Shown one piece after another: positions 5,784-52,122 of a DNA stretch of 56,135 nt (within the stretch, counting starts at the first letter, position 1; each line of letters begins with the position of its first letter). A program made the translations under genes and the position numbers. Under the pieces are notes generated by a model. The model did not search any database and had not been told where the DNA came from. It worked only from the letters and a program-made list of their open reading frames with translations. The DNA lies in the IMG/VR virus record IMGVR_UViG_3300042922_000108, positions 1 through 56,135 of that record. One strand, given 5' to 3'. Source of the DNA: a virus.

Positions 5784-6022
5784 GCGAACTGCTTGACGCT
5801 AGGGCTCCAGACGGACAGCCCACAGAGAACATTCGGCTGATGCTCACCAATGAGCAGGCACGTCTTGATGAGTGGGAGCGCTCATTGGTGGCAGCTCTAC
5901 GTTCTGTTGAGAGCTACACGGATATCATCAAGCGGAACCGCGAAACTGTGAACCGCCTGAAGATGGAACTCAGGACACGGTTGAGGGAAGAGCAGGAAGC
6001 CGTAGAGGTGAATGGCCTGTGA
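5780..6022 (+). CDS. Small coiled-coil protein
   Basis: An 80-residue protein starting with GTG in a four-base overlap with the previous stop and overlapping the next start by four bases. Residues 22-75 look like one long amphipathic coiled coil (RLDEWERSLVAALRSVESY, then NRETVNRLKMELRTRLREE). Function unknown. Confidence 0.75.
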   Translation: MSELLDARAPDGQPTENIRLMLTNEQARLDEWERSLVAALRSVESYTDIIKRNRETVNRLKMELRTRLREEQEAVEVNGL

Positions 6023-9737: not shown

Positions 9738-10061
9738 TTGAAGCTCAACAAGTACGCAGCCAACGAAATCACCGGAGAGCTGCCCAAGGGTGTGACAGCT
9801 ACCGCAACGCTCATCATCAAGCTCAAGGCCAAGTGCACAGCGTGTGGAGAGACACACGAGCATGAGGAAGAGACTGACGGTAGGTACAACGCTGACTACG
9901 CTATCCAACACAAGATGCGCTTCACCACAGTGAAGACCAATCGGGACACTCGTACCTACTACGGTATGGAATTCCTGTTGTGCCCTAGTTGCAACAAAAC
10001 CGCGCAAGACTTCATGACTGGCAAGATCAATCTGAAAGAGGAAACCATTGAAGCTGACTGA
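9738..10061 (+). CDS. Zinc-ribbon protein
   Basis: A 107-residue protein starting with TTG 9738. Two CxxC motifs (CTAC with a following HEHEEE, and CPSC) are spaced about 50 residues apart, the layout of a two-knuckle zinc ribbon. Its end overlaps the RNA ligase start by 14 bases, so expression is coupled to RNA repair. Function not recognised. Confidence 0.78.
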   Translation: MKLNKYAANEITGELPKGVTATATLIIKLKAKCTACGETHEHEEETDGRYNADYAIQHKMRFTTVKTNRDTRTYYGMEFLLCPSCNKTAQDFMTGKINLKEETIEAD

Positions 10062-11145
10062 ACTCTTCACGCTGGGACAGCTCGAGCTTGAGCTACAGGA
10101 CGGCTACGTGAAGGAAACGAAGCATCCTACGCTTCCCCTCACCATTCTGAACTACACCGACAAGTGCACCTATGAGCAGCTCTGGAATGATGTGACAACG
10201 CATTGCCGGGGGCTCATTGTCAACAACGTGACGCACGAGGTCATTGCTCGCGGACCTCGCAAGTTCTTCAACTACGGTGAGCCATCAGCAGCAACATGGC
10301 CGCTATCTCAGATGGTAGAACTCAGTACCAAGGAAGACGGCTCGCTGGGAATTGGTTGGCGGTTCTTTGACGGTGCACAGTGGCATTACGGGGTAGCCAC
10401 ACGCGGTAGCTTCACGTCAGAGCAGGCACTACACGCTACTGAGCTTCTGACGGATGACGATAAAGGTTCCATTGATTGGGGTACAGACTTCCACACCCGT
10501 ATCTGGGAGATTGTCTACCCTGAAAACCGTATTGTGTTGGACTACGGCGGACGGGATGAGCTTATCCCTCTTGGTACTGTGAACCATTACACAGGGCTTA
10601 TCCAGTGGAGGCCCCGTAAGGTTGCGCACTCTGACGTACTGGGAGCTATCACCTTGGGCGAAGCGCTCGCGTTGAAGATTCCAGACAACGAAGAGGGCTA
10701 TGTGCTCGATATCCTCAACACACAAGGTGTAGTGGTTGACCACCTGAAGCTCAAGGGTGAACGGTACAAAGAGCTTCACGCAGCAATCTTTGGTCTGTCT
10801 GAGAAGGCTATCTGGGAGCAGATGGTAGAAGGCACACACTTTGACTTCATTGCTGCCCTGCCGGATGAGGTACAGCCGTGGGCTCATGAAGTCGCTGACA
10901 GTCTCAGTGATGCCTTTGAGGGGTACTACTACAAAATCAACTATGTCTACTCGAGCGTGGTGACTTTCGAGCACCGTAGGGGGCAGGCTGAATACCTCAA
11001 GGCACACCACCCTGAAATTATGTCTCCTGTCTTCAACCTGCTTGACGGTAAGGTAGACCGTATGGAAGAGTGGGTCTGGAAGAAGATCAAGCCGGGACAC
11101 GTACCGTTTTCCGCAAGCAACGCATTGGAGAGTGCATCAGTTTGA
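10048..11145 (+). CDS. rnlA: Rnl1-type RNA ligase
   Basis: A 365-residue ATP-dependent RNA ligase of the T4 Rnl1 type, which seals 5'-phosphate and 3'-hydroxyl RNA ends such as cleaved tRNA anticodon loops. The adenylylated lysine is K95 in motif I KEDGS, close to K99 of T4 Rnl1. Upstream CRGLIV (R54) and RKFFNYGE are typical of Rnl1; motif IV appears as EGYVLDI and motif V as LKLKGERYKEL. Start TTG 10048. Its partner kinase/phosphatase is two genes downstream, separated by an HNH gene. In T4 the pair repairs tRNA cut by host anticodon nucleases; the same use here is inference. Confidence 0.93.
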   Translation: MKLTELFTLGQLELELQDGYVKETKHPTLPLTILNYTDKCTYEQLWNDVTTHCRGLIVNNVTHEVIARGPRKFFNYGEPSAATWPLSQMVELSTKEDGSLGIGWRFFDGAQWHYGVATRGSFTSEQALHATELLTDDDKGSIDWGTDFHTRIWEIVYPENRIVLDYGGRDELIPLGTVNHYTGLIQWRPRKVAHSDVLGAITLGEALALKIPDNEEGYVLDILNTQGVVVDHLKLKGERYKELHAAIFGLSEKAIWEQMVEGTHFDFIAALPDEVQPWAHEVADSLSDAFEGYYYKINYVYSSVVTFEHRRGQAEYLKAHHPEIMSPVFNLLDGKVDRMEEWVWKKIKPGHVPFSASNALESASV

Positions 11146-11166: not shown

Positions 11167-11586
11167 GTGCGTACAAGGGCTAGAGCTGATCCTGAGACAC
11201 GCTTCTTTGCTCAGGTAGACATAACTGGATTCTGCTGGCTCTGGAATCGTGCACTAACCCGCAAGGGTTATGCAATGTTCAAGTTTGATCCACAGCAGAA
11301 TAAGGCACAAGCACATCGTTGGATTTACGAGCACTTGGTAGGTCCAATACCAGACGGTTTGGTATTGGATCACCTTTGCCGCATTAGGCACTGTGTGAAT
11401 CCTGACCATGTTGAACCTGTCACCAACGTTGAGAACGTGCGACGTGGGAATGGTGATTACAACAAAAACAAGTTACACTGCAAGCGGGGACACAGTTACA
11501 CAGGAGATAACGTGTACGTCCACAACAACCGAAGACATTGCAGGGCTTGCAGAGCACTGACACACATGCAAAGGAAACAGAAGTGA
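11167..11586 (+). CDS. HNH endonuclease between RNA-repair genes
   Basis: A 139-residue HNH nuclease with FCWLWN, GPIPDGLVLDHLC and CVNPDHVEP, then a C-terminal CKRGH ... CRAC zinc motif. It is closely related to the protein at 132-656. It starts at GTG 11167 with no clear ribosome site and sits exactly between the RNA ligase and its kinase/phosphatase, the classic position of a free-standing homing endonuclease. Its stop overlaps the next GTG by four bases. Confidence 0.88.
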   Translation: MRTRARADPETRFFAQVDITGFCWLWNRALTRKGYAMFKFDPQQNKAQAHRWIYEHLVGPIPDGLVLDHLCRIRHCVNPDHVEPVTNVENVRRGNGDYNKNKLHCKRGHSYTGDNVYVHNNRRHCRACRALTHMQRKQK

Positions 11587-12533
11587 CGACTCCATTTATC
11601 ATTTTGACTAGAGGGTTGCCGGGTAGCGGTAAGAGCACATGGGCTGACAACACCATTTCCATTCTGCGGAACACCGTCAAGGTGGAGCGTGACGAAATGC
11701 GCCAGCTCCACTTCAAGCAGTACGGCAAGCTGTCCACGGAGCAGGAAGAGCAGGTGACCCGTACTCAGGAAGCCTTGGTTCGCGCCTACATTGGTCAGGG
11801 CGTGAACGTCATCATCAGTGACACTCACCTTCCTGACCGCTCTGTGAAGCGCTGGCAGAAGATCGGCCTCGAGCTTGGTTCTGAGGTTCTGGTACAGGAG
11901 TTCCGCAACGTACCTCTTGAGACGGTGCTGAAGAACAATGCGGAGCGCAATAAGTACCAGAAGGTTGTACCTGAGTCTGTCATCCGTGACATGCACAACC
12001 GCTTCATCAAGGGCCGTGACCTTGACAAGGAAGTGACGTACACACCTCCTGCTGAGCTGGAGATTGAGCCCTACGTACAACCTGACTTTGAGACAGGTTA
12101 TGAGGCTGTCATCTTTGACATTGACGGTACTCTTGCTGTCTTGGGTGACCGCTCACCTTACGATCCCACCAAGTACCACCTTGACAGTCTCAATGTGGAC
12201 GTGAACGCTTCCCTCGAAGCACATTGGAAGCTTGGACGGGAAATCATCATCGTTTCAGGACGTGATGAGGCATACCGCTCTGAGACAATCGCATGGCTCA
12301 ATGAGAACGAAGTGAAGTGGGACTTCCTTCACATGCGTCCTACGGAGAACCGTAAGGACGGGAAGAAAACCGAAGACAGCATCATCAAGTACAACCTCTT
12401 CAACGAGTACATCAGGGGTAAGAACTACAAAATCCTTGGTGTGTACGATGACAGGCAGCGTGTCTTGCGTATGTGGCGCAAGCTGGGGCTCACCACATTC
12501 CACGTCAACGGTCCTGACGCGGGAAACTTCTAG
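11583..12533 (+). CDS. pnk: Polynucleotide kinase/3'-phosphatase
   Basis: A 316-residue bifunctional enzyme arranged as in T4 PseT. Residues 11-19 are the kinase P-loop GLPGSGKST, with the nucleoside-binding RDEM and SDTH segments after it. The C-terminal HAD-type phosphatase starts at DIDGT (D179 and D181) with SGRDE and VYDDR motifs. GTG 11583 is preferred because AAAGGAAAC precedes it; the longer frame reaches into the HNH gene. It heals RNA ends by removing 3' or cyclic phosphate and adding 5' phosphate, ready for the RNA ligase at 10048. Confidence 0.94.
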   Translation: MTTPFIILTRGLPGSGKSTWADNTISILRNTVKVERDEMRQLHFKQYGKLSTEQEEQVTRTQEALVRAYIGQGVNVIISDTHLPDRSVKRWQKIGLELGSEVLVQEFRNVPLETVLKNNAERNKYQKVVPESVIRDMHNRFIKGRDLDKEVTYTPPAELEIEPYVQPDFETGYEAVIFDIDGTLAVLGDRSPYDPTKYHLDSLNVDVNASLEAHWKLGREIIIVSGRDEAYRSETIAWLNENEVKWDFLHMRPTENRKDGKKTEDSIIKYNLFNEYIRGKNYKILGVYDDRQRVLRMWRKLGLTTFHVNGPDAGNF

Positions 12534-15942: not shown

Positions 15943-16476
15943 GTGACTGAGCGTCCTTCATTTGACCTGACCGCCGAAGACCTTGACACCACCCGCAAGT
16001 TGGTGCCGGAAGGCTGGCACACGGTTGAAATTGATGACTGCGAAGACGATCTGGAGACTTCCAACGGGAACCTTCAGTACCTCGTGAAGTACAAGTCCGT
16101 GGATGAGAGCTTCAAGGGACAGCTTTGGGACTACATTGCAGTCACGAAGTCTTCCATTCAGAACATCATCAGCCTGACCAAGGCTGCAGGCCTGCCGGTT
16201 CCCACCAAGGAAAAGCCGGGTCCGTTTACCCCTCCTGAAGCTGATGACCTGATCGGCAAGGAACTCCAGATTGAAGTTGTCCACGTGGATGACTACAAGA
16301 AGGCAACTGACGATGAGGGCAATATCCTCAAGCGTGCACAGGTCCGTTTCGCCGGTCGTAAGAAGATCGGTGAGAAGGTAGGCAAGACTGCTGCCAAGGC
16401 AACCACCAAGGCTGGCGCTAAGGCTCCGGCTAAGGGCAAGGCCGCTGCTGCTGAGACTGACGGTTTCTCGCTGTAG
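15943..16476 (+). CDS. DUF669-like ssDNA-binding partner
   Basis: A 177-residue protein from GTG 15943 with AAAGGAA ten bases before it. Residues 1-130 fit the DUF669-like fold (LVPEGWHTVEIDDCED, then LVKYKSVDE and a KELQIEVVHVDDYK strand); residues 140-170 are a Lys/Ala-rich histone-H1-like tail, ended by the acidic-aromatic tip DGFSL resembling SSB tails. Such proteins accompany Sak4 and are thought to act as single-strand DNA-binding proteins. The KA-rich tail could bind DNA directly. Confidence 0.8.
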   Translation: MTERPSFDLTAEDLDTTRKLVPEGWHTVEIDDCEDDLETSNGNLQYLVKYKSVDESFKGQLWDYIAVTKSSIQNIISLTKAAGLPVPTKEKPGPFTPPEADDLIGKELQIEVVHVDDYKKATDDEGNILKRAQVRFAGRKKIGEKVGKTAAKATTKAGAKAPAKGKAAAAETDGFSL

Positions 16477-16481
16477 CTGAC

Positions 16482-16541
16482 GTGGTGGGGTAACGATGGC
16501 ACTACCCGTTACTTAAACGTTCAAGATAATGCGCCCACCAC
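16482..16541 (+). ncRNA. Structured RNA or operator hairpin
   Basis: GTGGTGGG (16482-16489) pairs perfectly with CCCACCAC (16534-16541), and directly inside it GTAACG (16490-16495) pairs with CGTTAC (16507-16512). No T-run follows, so it is not a simple terminator. It could be the 5' end of a structured transcript or a repressor site. Confidence 0.5.
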
Positions 16542-16576
16542 CCTAACTCCTGAGCATGAGTGATAAACTGCTCCAA

Positions 16577-16717
16577 CGGCTGATAGTTCAATCTGGTGTA
16601 GGCGAACATATTGTTCTGTGACGGGCGTGAACACTCGAGGAACGTCACAGCAAATTACTGGGAGCTTCAGAACACTACCTTTGGTGGTAGAGATATGGGT
16701 TCAAATCCCACAAGCCG
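16577..16717 (+). ncRNA. tRNA-like structured RNA candidate
   Basis: CGGCT (16577-16581) pairs with AGCCG (16713-16717) as a short acceptor-like stem. Then TAGTTCAATCTGGT mimics a D-arm, with GTTC (16586-16589) and GAAC (16604-16607). A perfect 8-bp hairpin CTGTGACG/CGTCACAG (16616-16650), a 5-bp hairpin CTACC/GGTAG (16675-16690) and a T-arm-like TGGG-TTCAAAT-CCCA (16696-16710) follow in order. At 141 bases it is too long for a tRNA and lacks a normal anticodon arm, so it may be a tRNA mimic, an intron-interrupted or decayed tRNA. Confidence 0.45.
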
Positions 16718-16748
16718 ACAAGAGCAGCATAGCGTTAGTAGCGGAAGT

Positions 16749-16820
16749 GAAAGCCAGATGGCTCTTGCCGGAGGGCGATAACCTCAAGAGGAAGCCAGTC
16801 GAAAGGCTGGCTTTCCTTTT
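16749..16820 (+). terminator. Terminator with alternative left arms
   Basis: GAAGCCAG (16791-16798) pairs with CTGGCTTTC (16807-16815) before CCTTTT, an intrinsic terminator. A second copy, GAAAGCCAG at 16749-16757, is an even better partner for the same right arm, and CTCTTG/CAAGAG (16762-16790) forms a hairpin between them. Two exclusive folds are possible. Confidence 0.7.
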
Positions 16821-16848
16821 GCCCTAGCGGGATGGAATATGAAACATC

Positions 16849-16882: not shown

Positions 16883-19105
16883 ATGACCGAGTACCGCACA
16901 TTCCTTGAAAGTGTCTGGGGAGAACTGCAGGGACAGGTCTGCATTTCGCGCATGAACAATGACCAACTGAAGAACCACAAGTTCTTCTCTTGGCCGGAGC
17001 AGGCAGACGCGATCTGGGACTACGTTGACAAGTACAAGCACGAAGACGTGTACTTCCCTCCTGTACTCTTCAAGGCCAACAAGAGACAGCGTGTGCTCGC
17101 CAGTCAGTGCCAAGTTGTGTACGGTGACGCGGATACCTTCAACCTTGATGACGTGCGCTGTGAGCCGTCCATCATCGTCAGGACTTCCCCCAACAAGACT
17201 CACCTGTACTGGATGATTGAGGGCATGGATAATGCCCAGCTTGCCGAAACGCTCTCGCACTCTGTCTCAGTAGCACACCCCAAGGCGTCCACAGGCTTTG
17301 ATGACGGATGGAGCTGCACCAAGCTTCTGCGTGTTCCCGGCACCACGAACACCAAGTACGTAGGCGAGACGGGTGAGGTCTACACCGTTGAGGTGGAGTA
17401 CACCGGAGTGACCTACACACAGGAAGAGTTTGAAGGGTACTACCCTCCTGTTCCTGAGTACACCATCGACTTCAAGCCCTTCCCCGAAGAGGCTTTCCCG
17501 TCCTACGCTGAGGTTCTGGGCTCCCTGCCTGCAAGCACACGGCTGGAAGGCCTGCTACAGACGGCAGCGTTCCCGAAGAAGTCTGCTGGCTCAGAAGCCT
17601 TGTACGCGCTCTACGTTGAGCTGATGAACCTTGGCGCGACAGATGAGCAGGTCTACGTCATTGCAGAGCGCTCACCGCTGAACAAGTGGAAGCGTGACGG
17701 ACACAGGGATGCTGGAGAGCGTCTGTGGGCAGACATTCAGCGCGCTCGCGTGAAGGATGGCTCACCGATTGATGGTGACGAAGAAGAGGATGATGAAGAC
17801 ACCATCATCACCGTTGCTCCCAAGCCGAAGACCAAGGGCTTTGACTTCCTGAATGAGGGGGAGAAGGAATCCCTGCAGCGCACCTTCATTGATGACTACC
17901 TGACGTGGACTAAGAGCAAGACTGACGCACCGGAGGCCTACCACATTGCTGGCGCGTTCACTGTGCTTTCCACGGTGTTCTCCGATTTCGGTCACGCTGT
18001 GCCTCACTGGGGAGACGTGCCGCTGAACCTGTGGTTCATGGTGCTGGGCTCCACCACGCTTTCTCGTAAGTCCACCGCCAAGGGTTACATGCTGAAGTGC
18101 ATCGAAGCCCTCGAGGGTGAGAACTTCAACTATGACTTGGGCTCCAAGTTCACGGCTGAAGGTCTGGATGAGGCTCTGCGTTCCAATGCCAACCGTTCCG
18201 CTCTGCTCCACATTGATGAGATTCAGGGCTTGATGAAGCAGCTTGACAGCAAGGCCTACCTTGCTGGCATCAAGGGCGAACTCACGGAAATCTACGATGG
18301 CAAGGTCACAGGCAAGCTGCGTGCTTCCGGTGAAGAGAAGGATAAGAAGCGCAAGGGTGCTCGCGTGGCGCTCAACCTGTTCGCAATGGGTATCCGTGAC
18401 CAGCTCGCGGACTACCTGACCGAAGATGACTTCCAGTCAGGCTTCCTGACGCGATTCATCTACGTGTCCGCCAAGCCGCTGCAGCGCACCGCTGAGACTG
18501 ACTACATCGGTCAGCAGGATAAGACAGAGCGCACCAAGGGCGATCCTGCCTTCCTGAACCTCATTGAGAAGCTGAAGGAAGCGCGTGACGTTTGGTCAGG
18601 GTGGAACGATCCTACAGAGCGCACCATTGCAGTGCCAATGAATGTGGAAGCACACGAGCGCTTCAACGCTTTCGTCACGGCTGCTATCGACGCTGCACAG
18701 GCTCAGTCCAAGGCCACGATCCTTGAGGCTGCTACCAACCGTCTGTCTACGTCCATCCTGAAGGCCGCTACGCTGCTGGCAATGGCTGACATGTGTGATG
18801 AGGTTGAGCTTCACCACATGCTGGCTGCTATCAACTACTGCGGTCAGTGGTTTGAGCACCTTGTGGAAATGACCAAGCGGATTTCTGAGAGCAACTGGAA
18901 GCGCCGTCAAGACAAGCTGATGGAAGCCGTGTTTGCCAAGGGTGGTGAAATCTCGTGGGCATCTGCCTACCGCCACTTCAACGCTGAGCTGAAGGCGCGT
19001 GAGTTCACGGAGCTGGTGCAGTCTCTCGAAGAGGCAGGCCTGCTCATCATGTCCAAGAATAAGAAGACCAAGACGCTGGTAGCCGTAATGGAAGGAACTG
19101 TCTAA
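16883..19105 (+). CDS. Primase-helicase fusion
   Basis: A 740-residue replication protein. The N-terminal part (about 1-220) resembles a primase/PrimPol of the archaeo-eukaryotic type: YGDADTFNLDD with spaced aspartates, then RTSPNKTHLYWMIEG and a KLLRVPGTTNTK segment. An acidic linker near 295-310 joins it to a DUF3987-like helicase with a Walker A variant GSTTLSRKST and Walker B LLHIDEIQ, plus an RFIYVSAK segment. It should lay down primers and unwind the fork for the polymerase at 19780. ATG 16883 has a strong GAAAGGAG site. Confidence 0.85.
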   Translation: MTEYRTFLESVWGELQGQVCISRMNNDQLKNHKFFSWPEQADAIWDYVDKYKHEDVYFPPVLFKANKRQRVLASQCQVVYGDADTFNLDDVRCEPSIIVRTSPNKTHLYWMIEGMDNAQLAETLSHSVSVAHPKASTGFDDGWSCTKLLRVPGTTNTKYVGETGEVYTVEVEYTGVTYTQEEFEGYYPPVPEYTIDFKPFPEEAFPSYAEVLGSLPASTRLEGLLQTAAFPKKSAGSEALYALYVELMNLGATDEQVYVIAERSPLNKWKRDGHRDAGERLWADIQRARVKDGSPIDGDEEEDDEDTIITVAPKPKTKGFDFLNEGEKESLQRTFIDDYLTWTKSKTDAPEAYHIAGAFTVLSTVFSDFGHAVPHWGDVPLNLWFMVLGSTTLSRKSTAKGYMLKCIEALEGENFNYDLGSKFTAEGLDEALRSNANRSALLHIDEIQGLMKQLDSKAYLAGIKGELTEIYDGKVTGKLRASGEEKDKKRKGARVALNLFAMGIRDQLADYLTEDDFQSGFLTRFIYVSAKPLQRTAETDYIGQQDKTERTKGDPAFLNLIEKLKEARDVWSGWNDPTERTIAVPMNVEAHERFNAFVTAAIDAAQAQSKATILEAATNRLSTSILKAATLLAMADMCDEVELHHMLAAINYCGQWFEHLVEMTKRISESNWKRRQDKLMEAVFAKGGEISWASAYRHFNAELKAREFTELVQSLEEAGLLIMSKNKKTKTLVAVMEGTV

Positions 19106-19787: not shown

Positions 19788-21933
19788 CTACATTTACAGC
19801 TCCACACCGATGGAGCAGGAGCACATGGCCCTCCTGAAAAAGGCTAAAGAGCAGTCAGGCATCACGGAGCCCATCGACTTCATGCCACTGCCTGATGAGC
19901 CATTCAAAAACGTCCCAGTGCTTGCGCTGGGGCGTTTGACTCGTGAGGTCCGGTGCCGTGTCATCAATGCACCGTCTCCCGGCTCGCTGATGACCAAGGC
20001 TGACTCCCTGACGCGCATGACAGACGCGCTCAAGCTGCTGGTGAACGGTCCACAGCTCCCTGAAATGAACTACGTGGTGGAAGAGCGCATTGACTGGCTC
20101 TGCGGCATCCTACGGAACACTCACGGCAAAAAGGTCGCGTTCGATATCGAAACGTCCGGTGATGTGAAGTGGGATATCCCTGCTTACGATCAAGTCATTT
20201 CGGTGGCTATCTGGGGCGGCACTGGTCCCGTCATGGTCATCCCCGAGCACATGCTCAGGAACGATCTGATTGAGCGCGCCCTCAACAAGTTCCTACGGCG
20301 CAACAAGATCATCACCGCCAACGGCAAGTTTGACCTGTCCTACTTTGAGCCTGACCTTGTGAACTGGTTCGATATCATGCTGGCTCACTACGCCCTGTTC
20401 CCGGCAGGGAGCACACACGGCCTGAAGGACTTGGCTGACCAGTATTTCGGCTCTGGTGACTGGGATGAAGCCAACAAGCAGTACACGGTAGCCAAGACGT
20501 ACAAGGAAGCCGGTTCCCGCGAAGACGGGGCTTGGTGGAGCGCTCGCAAGTACAGCGGCGGCTCTGGCTACGAACGTATCCCGCGCGCAATGCTGTACGA
20601 GTACAACGCCTTTGACGTGTTCTACACGTGGTTCCTGTACGAGCTGTTTGAGGATTACCTTGCGGAAGACCCAGAGTCCCGCATGGCCTTTGACTGGCTG
20701 CTGGAGCTGGACAATGACCTGTTCCGTGGTGTGGAGCGCCGTGGTATCCGGCTGAATGTCGAGTACCTGAAGCAGCTCGAGGAAGAGATGACTGCTGAGC
20801 TGTTTGAGGCTGAGCAGGAGTTGAACCGCATTGCTGGGCAGGTCATCAATCCGCGCTCTCCCATACAGGTGAAGGACTGGCTGCACAGCCGTAAGAAGCG
20901 TGTCAAGGGCACCGGCAAGGCTGTCATTGAGAAGCTGATGAAGAGTGACCGGACTTCTGATGAGGTCAAGGACTTCTGCAGAGCATTCACCAAGTGCCGG
21001 TTCATCAGCAAGCAGCTTGGCACTTACGTCACGGGCTTCCTGAAGCATTGCCACGGTGACATGGTGTACCCCGGCTACAAGCTGCACGCGGCCTCTACAG
21101 GCCGTCTGGGAGGCTCTGGAGCGTCCATGCTCACAATCCCCCGCGACAAGCGTTTGAAGGCTATGGTGCTGCCTTCCGTGGACGGTCACGTGGTAGTGAC
21201 AGCCGATATGTCTCAGGCTGAGCTACGTGTGATGGCTATGGAGTCCGGTGACCCTTGGTTGATTGCAGCCTTCCAGCCTGACGCTGGCGATATCTTTGAT
21301 ATCCTCCTGCAGTCTGCAATGCCTCAGTACGACTGGGCAGAGCTACACGCTCGAGCTGATGACGGTGACGATCCGGGGCAGTTCTACGGTACGTGGCGCG
21401 CTCGCATGAAGGGCGTTGTGTACGGTGTGTCCTTTGGCCGTGGTGTGGCTGCTATCGCTGCAGCGCTTGAGGTTGAGAAGCACATTGCTCAAACGCTGGT
21501 AGACGGTTTCGTGCGTCCGGGCAGCAAGTTTGCTCAGTGGCGGGAAGAGATAGAAACCAAGGCTCTGACTGGTCAGGCCATCGTGACCAAGTTTGGGCGG
21601 CACTTCCAGTCGGAAATCATCACCGAGTACAACGCTCACGAGGTGACGAACTCTGCGCTGAGCTTCACGTCGCAGTCCACAGCCAACGATATCTGTCTGA
21701 AGGCGGCTGTGTGGCTGAATCCCCAGCTCGAGCAGTACGGCGCGTGGCTCATGGGTACCATCCATGACGCTATCTACGTGACCTGCCCTGAAGAACACAA
21801 GGTGACCGTGGGCAAGCTCATTGCTGAGGCTCTGAAGAGGGCAGGACGGGATGCCTACGGCGATACGGTTCCGTTCGCTGCTGACGCTGGCTATGGACCC
21901 AACCTTGCGAAAATCGAGAAACTTGCCGCATGA
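19780..21933 (+). CDS. polA: Family A DNA polymerase with proofreading
   Basis: A 717-residue T7/PolI-type DNA polymerase. The N-terminal extension is followed by a 3'-5' exonuclease domain with the FDIETS motif (about 119-124) and further acidic motifs in TANGKFDLSYF. The polymerase domain shows motif A TADMSQAELRVMAME, motif B around KGVVYGVSFGRGV and motif C GTIHDAIYVT with the catalytic Asp. It lacks a 5' nuclease domain, usual for phage enzymes. Start TTG 19780 overlaps the previous gene. It is the replicative polymerase working with the primase-helicase upstream. Confidence 0.96.
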   Translation: MRSYIYSSTPMEQEHMALLKKAKEQSGITEPIDFMPLPDEPFKNVPVLALGRLTREVRCRVINAPSPGSLMTKADSLTRMTDALKLLVNGPQLPEMNYVVEERIDWLCGILRNTHGKKVAFDIETSGDVKWDIPAYDQVISVAIWGGTGPVMVIPEHMLRNDLIERALNKFLRRNKIITANGKFDLSYFEPDLVNWFDIMLAHYALFPAGSTHGLKDLADQYFGSGDWDEANKQYTVAKTYKEAGSREDGAWWSARKYSGGSGYERIPRAMLYEYNAFDVFYTWFLYELFEDYLAEDPESRMAFDWLLELDNDLFRGVERRGIRLNVEYLKQLEEEMTAELFEAEQELNRIAGQVINPRSPIQVKDWLHSRKKRVKGTGKAVIEKLMKSDRTSDEVKDFCRAFTKCRFISKQLGTYVTGFLKHCHGDMVYPGYKLHAASTGRLGGSGASMLTIPRDKRLKAMVLPSVDGHVVVTADMSQAELRVMAMESGDPWLIAAFQPDAGDIFDILLQSAMPQYDWAELHARADDGDDPGQFYGTWRARMKGVVYGVSFGRGVAAIAAALEVEKHIAQTLVDGFVRPGSKFAQWREEIETKALTGQAIVTKFGRHFQSEIITEYNAHEVTNSALSFTSQSTANDICLKAAVWLNPQLEQYGAWLMGTIHDAIYVTCPEEHKVTVGKLIAEALKRAGRDAYGDTVPFAADAGYGPNLAKIEKLAA

Positions 21934-22397
21934 TCTGGATTCTTAGATTTTGGGCGAAGGTTGACTACTCAGGTGATTGCTGGTTGTGGCCTGATGCTCT
22001 TACGGAGGGTTACGGCATGTTCAGCCGTGACAACAAGCAACATCTTGCCCATCGTATAGCGTATGAGCAAACTTACGGTGAGATACCAAAGGGGTTGATG
22101 GTGGATCACATGTGTCACACAAGGCATTGTGTAAGGCCTGACCACCTACGCGCTGTAACCCATAAGCAAAATCAAGAGAATCGGAAAGGTAATCAGAAGA
22201 ACAACACTTCCGGTTATCGCGGTGTGTGGCTACACAAACCGTCTGGCCGGTGGATAGCACGTGTGAAACATCACGGTAAGGTGCACCACTTAGGACAGTT
22301 TGACGATGTACATGAAGCAGGTAAGGTTGCTGCAGAGGCTCGTGAAGCATTATTCACCTCAAATCCGTTGAAAGGTGTTGACAAGCTAGTTGCCTAG
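21930..22397 (+). CDS. HNH endonuclease with AP2 domain
   Basis: A 155-residue homing-type nuclease. Residues 8-90 are the HNH part (DCWLWPDA, GLMVDHMCHTRHCVRPDHL), and residues 91-145 are an AP2/ERF DNA-binding domain (NNTSGYRGVWLHKPSGRW, then HLGQFDDVHEAGKVAAEA). This HNH-AP2 fusion is common in free-standing phage homing endonucleases. ATG 21930 overlaps the polymerase stop by four bases; insertion next to the polymerase is a favoured homing location. Confidence 0.92.
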   Translation: MIWILRFWAKVDYSGDCWLWPDALTEGYGMFSRDNKQHLAHRIAYEQTYGEIPKGLMVDHMCHTRHCVRPDHLRAVTHKQNQENRKGNQKNNTSGYRGVWLHKPSGRWIARVKHHGKVHHLGQFDDVHEAGKVAAEAREALFTSNPLKGVDKLVA

Positions 22398-51936: not shown

Positions 51937-52049
51937 TTGGTGTTCGCATGGAATTTATATCGACGGGCCATGCACCTCGCCATTGGTCAGCTAGCAGGTG
52001 GTTACTTAGCTACAGGATTTTCGGCCTATGATTCGTTCCACCCGCCGCG
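51937..52049. other. Non-coding stretch beside tRNA
   Basis: No gene. GCATGG and CCATGC (51946-51973) form a small inverted repeat, as do CACCT and AGGTG. It may be processed with the tRNA transcript. Confidence 0.45.

Positions 52050-52122
<73 letters not shown>

Follow-up and report, generated by a model that had tools for sequence, protein, structure and literature searches.

What is a tRNA-like RNA that is too long to be a tRNA doing between two replication genes of a phage? The question arises in a 56,135-bp virus record of a soil phage, analyzed here over its full length (the window). An ssb-like gene (15943–16476, + strand), whose equivalents in Amigo, Molivia and other phages are annotated as single-strand DNA-binding protein, is separated from the DNA primase gene (16883–19105, + strand) by a gene-free gap, and the tRNA-like element lies in this gap on the same strand (16577–16718). 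The primase is about 50% identical to those of Arthrobacter phage Amigo and its group, so an actinobacterial host is likely for the window phage, an Arthrobacter-like assignment being drawn via these relatives only.

The arms of the element occur in the order expected of a tRNA, with additional hairpins between them. The 5-bp acceptor stem (CGGCU, 16577–16581; AGCCG, 16713–16717) encloses (i) a D arm at 16586–16607 (GUUC, 16586–16589; GAAC, 16604–16607) with a 14-nt loop that contains a G18G19-like GG; (ii) an inserted hairpin at 16616–16650 with a perfect 8-bp stem (CUGUGACG, 16616–16623; CGUCACAG, 16643–16650); (iii) a 4-bp hairpin at 16658–16670 (CUGG-GAGCU-UCAG), in the position expected for an anticodon arm; (iv) a variable-arm-like hairpin at 16675–16690 (CUACC, 16675–16679; GGUAG, 16686–16690; loop UUUGGU) and (v) a T arm at 16696–16710 (UGGG-UUCAAAU-CCCA). 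The discriminator position, 16718, is an A and CCA is not encoded. A first-pass annotation had named the acceptor, a D-arm-like segment, the 8-bp hairpin, a 5-bp hairpin and the TTCAAAT T arm, all of which we recover; the 4-bp hairpin is an addition to its list. The T loop fits the UUCRANY consensus, and the acceptor and T stems have 5 and 4 bp where a tRNA has 7 and 5.

Whether this arrangement is more than chance is answered by a homologue in L038, which we found by scanning IMG/VR with a primase alignment and then inspecting the gaps. The RNA is 83% identical between the two, compared with 52% for the ssb and 61% for the primase genes at the DNA level. Differences occur at 24 of 142 alignment columns (23 substitutions and one indel), and 10 of the substitutions constitute five doubly compensated pairs: 4–138 and 5–137 in the acceptor stem (CGGGA/UCCCG in L038), 101–112 in the variable-type arm (CUGCC/GGCAG) and 120–134 and 121–133 in the T stem (CAGG/CCUG). 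Two further changes retain pairing via G-U, the 4-bp hairpin being kept in L038 through G-C/G-U changes, and none of the 30 pairs is broken. When the same number of changes is placed at random, five or more double compensations arise with a probability of 5e-6 and an absence of broken pairs with a probability of 7e-4; sliding the partner strand by 1–3 nt leaves no compensated pair. Folding energy is marginal and on its own gives no significant evidence for the element: relative to shuffled versions, z is −1.62 for the 141 nt and −2.34 for the whole gap. The comparative evidence is decisive, and the existence and structure of the element as a real RNA, beyond chance, can be regarded as well supported.

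The element is neither a gene for a protein nor a recognizable tRNA. A 69-aa ORF overlaps it (16618–16827), but the corresponding frame in L038 ends after six codons (GTG ACG GGC GTG AAC ACC TAG); the ORF is not conserved and a coding reading is therefore rejected. ARAGORN and Rfam call no tRNA at 16577–16717, and a 60-kb search relaxed to E ≤ 5 does not change this; the L038 homologue is likewise not called, whereas both call the only other tRNA of the window phage, a tRNA-Asn at 52049–52122 (71 bits). The absence of a normal cloverleaf had been noted at the outset. Three hairpins stand where the anticodon arm would be, none of which has a 5-bp stem and a 7-nt loop with U33 and an anticodon. 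We also considered the 6-nt-loop hairpin as an anticodon arm and dropped this assignment, since the L038 and L017 folds place it better as a variable arm. None of 4227 Rfam models matches the window element or the anticodon-less elements in the loci searched, and a tmRNA or another known RNA family is rejected, with no match to ARAGORN or to the Rfam tmRNA model. Searching cultured phages for DNA similar to the gap yielded no match.

One way to reconcile a tRNA-like frame with this length is a functional tRNA precursor whose intron is cut out by a nuclease and sealed by phage enzymes. The window phage does carry genes for an RNA ligase (Rnl, 10048–11145) and a polynucleotide kinase (PNK, 11538–12533), as the first-pass annotation had recognized when it raised a tRNA with an insertion, and the 122-nt tRNA-like of Microbacterium phage Hubbs has perfect acceptor, D and T arms with additional hairpins between them. 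However, ARAGORN accepts as a tRNA none of the sequences made by single deletion, 1,015 from the window element and 1,015 from that of L038, which makes a removable insertion unlikely; the smallest members of the locus family are too small to hold an anticodon, and the enzymes do not track the tRNA-like. A tRNA-like is present without Rnl and PNK in three near-complete phages of the small-form type (G011, G012 and G013) and in the cultured WaterT and Lifes, G010 has a weak partial PNK match only, and in record G002 both enzymes are encoded but a tRNA-like is absent. A linkage to Rnl and PNK as a rule is thus rejected, and we regard the intron explanation as highly improbable. The same observations bear on the suggestion of a decoy for anticodon nucleases allied to these repair enzymes, which fits poorly because, throughout the locus family, the part that such nucleases would target is absent or broken up, and because the enzymes are uncoupled from the element. 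Separately, one HNH-endonuclease-like gene lies on each side of the window's replication module (11167–11586 and 21930–22397).

The question then becomes whether the locus, rather than this one sequence, has a consistent character. The ssb–primase gap is a fixed place of tRNAs and tRNA-likes in a broad, mostly actinobacterial phage group. Most members keep the acceptor and T arms and have an abnormal anticodon domain, which may be absent (forms of about 48–58 nt), closed by a tetraloop, provided with a loop of 5, 6, 8 or 10 nt, or marked by large inserted hairpins; the 122-nt Hubbs tRNA-like is one of these locus members. In Arthrobacter phages Amigo and Molivia and in contig L025 the anticodon arm ends in a CCAA tetraloop, and Amigo and Molivia each add a further tRNA whose loop is 5 or 8 nt long. 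The Amigo elements (L013, 5590–5750) are annotated as tRNA-Gly(ccc) and tRNA-Val(gac); both annotations are doubtful, the former being the CCAA tetraloop form and the latter combining a loop of 5 nt with a long variable arm. The tetraloop element of Molivia is likewise annotated as tRNA-Gly. A GAAA tetraloop closes the middle hairpin in L022, the anticodon loop has 10 nt in L023 and 8 nt in OlinDD, Musetta has a C at position 33, and the anticodon arm is missing from L010 and from the first of two L038 elements. The form in Clavibacter phage CN1A is 49 nt long and encodes its CCA; it has an acceptor of 5 bp and a T stem of 7 bp, and a single-stranded linker replaces the D and anticodon arms.

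Ordinary tRNAs also occur at the locus. Stenotrophomonas phage Jojan60, one of the two in Lifes and perhaps L017 and L021 have them, and WaterT and Curtobacterium phage Yappy each pair one ordinary with one odd tRNA, the odd WaterT form being about 100 nt; all of these ordinary tRNAs look able to decode. No tRNA-like is present in the gap of Nonagon or L019, and none was called or recognized in that of CMP1 or JustBecause. Among phages with primases 82–83% identical, L015 has a tRNA-like of 70 nt whose anticodon loop counts 6 nt and whose D loop is without GG, L017 has a 97-nt class-II-like form, and L016, L002 and L020 have a terminator and no tRNA-like. That phages with such similar primases have unrelated forms or none implies that the locus turns over fast.

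As a control, we examined the tRNAs located away from the primase in the same phages. These are nearly all ordinary, mostly scoring 50–71 bits with Rfam and having standard anticodons, so the disabled anticodon is largely confined to the pre-primase locus. A few odd tRNA-likes do occur outside it in Amigo, Molivia and mini-type phages (L105, 223–296; L106, 185–285; L102, L103 and L104). Two further observations concern individual loci. Leucine tRNAs are expected to have a long variable arm; the pre-primase tRNA-Leu(CAA) of L058 (4880–4954) and of L059 (3740–3815) is without one. An open frame of about 29 aa with a CSCC motif and a ribosome-binding site lies 3′ of the tRNA-like in L021 (approximately 5785–5915), L022 and L038.

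In a more distant group (L026–L053) the element is reduced to a mini fold of about 48 nt, consisting of the acceptor, a small hairpin and a T arm with a UUCGAG-type loop, which begins about 10 nt 3′ of the ssb stop codon. RNAalifold finds 13 pairs in this family, nine of them with double changes. When 13 sequences are aligned to our covariance model R2, 96.4% of the cells pair and covariation is 0.468, compared with 0.185 for shuffled alignments (0 of 500 as high) and at most 0.10 after sliding. R2 matches 16 loci, all in mini-type phages, and does not match the window element; the link between the window and mini forms is therefore one of place and architecture, not of sequence. L117 and L118, which had appeared as minis in a pattern scan, are coding false positives and were rejected. 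In L033 (5359–5980) the T stem of the mini is interrupted by an apparent second mini (T arm GCAUG-UUCGAGU-CAUGC), followed by an HNH endonuclease gene, and homing endonucleases may drive the turnover of the locus.

These comparisons bear on a main alternative, that tRNA genes land at this locus and then lose their anticodon region by drift, the 141-nt form being a relic of this remodeling or decay. Such an origin would be consistent with the ordinary tRNAs of Jojan60, Yappy, WaterT and Lifes, with the high turnover and with the invasion of the locus by an HNH endonuclease gene in L033. Drifting relics, however, are not expected to show the compensatory changes seen between the window and L038 and within the mini family, which on these alignments show selection on structure, nor a concentration of damage in the anticodon domain that spares the acceptor and T arms among the locus relatives. 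We therefore consider decay unlikely, and favor a tRNA mimic under selection: the mimic proposed by the first-pass annotation gains from both the compensatory changes in the tRNA-type arms and the tRNA-likes at the same locus in relatives.

The flanks of the element raise the other main alternative. On the 5′ side is a leader, CCTGAGCA-TGAGTGA-TAAACTGCTC (16549–16573), with an inverted repeat (GAGCA/TGCTC) whose two arms co-vary in relatives (AGCCA/TGGCT in WaterT, GGACA/TGTCC in Lifes). The repeat lies directly 5′ of the tRNA-like in the window, L010, L013–L015, L017, L021–L023, L038, L059 and L061, with its ..TAAAC mostly kept, and TAAACT is found 7–9 nt 5′ of the tRNA-like in most relatives. 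The leader could possibly be a hairpin, a promoter −10 element or an operator over the −10. On the 3′ side, the terminator reported after the element corresponds to a hairpin, GGAAGCCAGTCGAAAGGCTGGCTTTCC (16790–16816; GGAAGCCAGTC-GAAA-GGCTGGCTTTCC), read from the sequence and followed by TTTT (to 16820); the hairpin is present, but only four T follow it and a consensus terminator scan does not call it. We also note a second, Y-shaped structured element upstream (16482–16541), with an 8-bp stem (GUGGUGGG/CCCACCAC) and two inner hairpins; stems occupy the equivalent place in L017 and L022, and CTAACTCCTGAGCATGAG always comes after the element.

Given this setting, the element could act in cis as a substrate of RNase P and RNase Z in the manner of tRNA punctuation, or as a 3′ stabilizer, setting the end of the ssb-operon transcript ahead of the terminator. 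Its position, 3′ of the ssb stop codon and 5′ of the terminator-like hairpin, fits such a role, and the mini fold is close behind the ssb stop. RNase P and RNase Z read the acceptor and T arm, which are the conserved parts, and the anticodon would be free to vary because both enzymes ignore it. Three observations argue against this explanation: (i) the close relatives L002, L016 and L020, and also L019, have no element between the same genes, which makes it dispensable for expressing ssb and primase; (ii) TAAACT adjoins the 5′ end in the window group, suggesting a separate transcription unit and (iii) the best-conserved portion is the inserted hairpin, which would be superfluous in a signal for processing alone. 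A 3′-end processing element for the ssb transcript is possible, if somewhat unlikely.

The inserted hairpin itself deserves attention. Its 19-nt loop reads GGCGUGAACA-CUCGAG-GAA, and the six-base palindrome CUCGAG (16634–16639) is replaced in L038 by another, CCUAGG. The hairpin region is otherwise the same in both, four loop bases being the only differences, while the flanking genes are 52–61% identical as DNA. The palindrome may allow a kissing-loop dimer or may be coincidence. One could accordingly regard the hairpin (GGCGUGAACA-palindrome-GAA) as the active part of a trans-acting regulatory or protein-binding RNA, stabilized by the tRNA-like body, with the changed palindrome allowing kissing dimers. 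Chance retention of a palindrome, however, has a probability of about 1 in 16. A scan for the hairpin pattern finds one other copy in IMG/VR (that of L038) and none in GTDB genomes, so that the collections searched hold two examples of the 141-nt form, and the other members of the locus have no inserted hairpin, so this explanation cannot account for the locus-wide pattern. We consider it quite doubtful.

The reading that we prefer, with a probability of roughly 40%, is that the 141-nt element is a non-decoding tRNA mimic, likeliest a decoy for enzymes that take hold of a tRNA by its acceptor/T-arm half. We infer that a small RNA would be made, probably from the TAAACT element, with a 5′ end near 16577 and a 3′ end at the downstream hairpin; host enzymes may trim the 3′ end and add CCA. 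Such an RNA would stay out of translation and compete for proteins that hold the acceptor/T-arm half. The likeliest targets would be host defense enzymes acting on tRNA 3′ ends by modification or cleavage, such as toxSAS (FaRel2/CapRel), MenT-type nucleotidyltransferases and Cas12a3, and the conserved inserted hairpin would provide an extra binding domain on the tRNA scaffold. FaRel2 recognizes a tRNA minihelix from which the anticodon arm is missing (PMC11559606) and Cas12a3 contacts the CCA tail, acceptor and T arm (PMC12851939); both are defense-type proteins. The fast turnover of the locus is as expected of an accessory gene in an arms race. The short acceptor and T stems of the window form, 5 + 4 pairs compared with 7 + 5, may not suffice for some tRNA-binding enzymes. 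Other points that weigh against the decoy are the CCA that is not encoded, the marginal folding energy, the link to the mini forms by place and architecture instead of sequence, and the relatives whose tRNA at the locus looks able to decode. More tentatively, the picture could extend to phages of actinobacteria, which would carry at a fixed place in the replication module fast-turnover, non-decoding tRNA-likes of 48–141 nt as decoys against defenses that read the acceptor/T-arm half, the 141-nt form being a scaffolded version with an added, possibly dimerizing, hairpin domain.

Phage tRNAs are usually explained as codon supplements or, lately, as spares that escape anticodon nucleases. A locus that keeps the tRNA body, mostly without the anticodon, fits neither view; it suggests that the acceptor/T-arm half has a role. 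Standard annotation overlooks such RNAs or labels them tRNA-Gly, tRNA-Val or 'tRNA-OTHER'. The idea is directly testable, because the cultured phages Amigo, Molivia, Hubbs, OlinDD and CN1A carry versions of the element. A literature search of partial coverage returned no paper describing such RNAs, those found covering phage tRNAs with anticodon-loop mutations or spare isoacceptors, and the novelty of anticodon-disabled RNAs at this locus is provisional.

The closest known systems are the phage-encoded tRNAs (RF00005), which likewise have acceptor, D and T arms of the tRNA type and may likewise serve against tRNA-targeting defense; the window element differs in being 141 nt long, in having no decodable anticodon loop and in matching neither RF00005 nor ARAGORN. 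Phage tRNAs have been proposed to resist anticodon nucleases by being insensitive through anticodon-loop mutations (van den Berg et al. 2023, PMC10264068), and a search of that text found no insertions or altered loop sizes. The layout of an acceptor/T-arm stack lacking the anticodon arm is shared by the mini forms (L026-type and CN1A) with the FaRel2 minihelix (PMC11559606) and the truncated tRNAs cleaved by Cas12a3 (PMC12851939), but those substrates are synthetic, whereas the locus forms are phage genes for which enzyme binding is proposed. Mitochondrial armless tRNAs and the tRNA-like structures of viruses and cells are likewise armless or used outside decoding. Armless mitochondrial tRNAs retain the anticodon arm, whereas in the locus forms the anticodon domain is the part lost or replaced. 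Like the window element, tmRNA has a tRNA-like end domain with extra hairpins replacing the anticodon arm, but the window element is 141 nt long, has no tag reading frame and is not called by a tmRNA model. Because the tRNA ancestry of its arms is evident, we class the element with the phage tRNA-like RNAs, as a variant, and propose no separate category for it.
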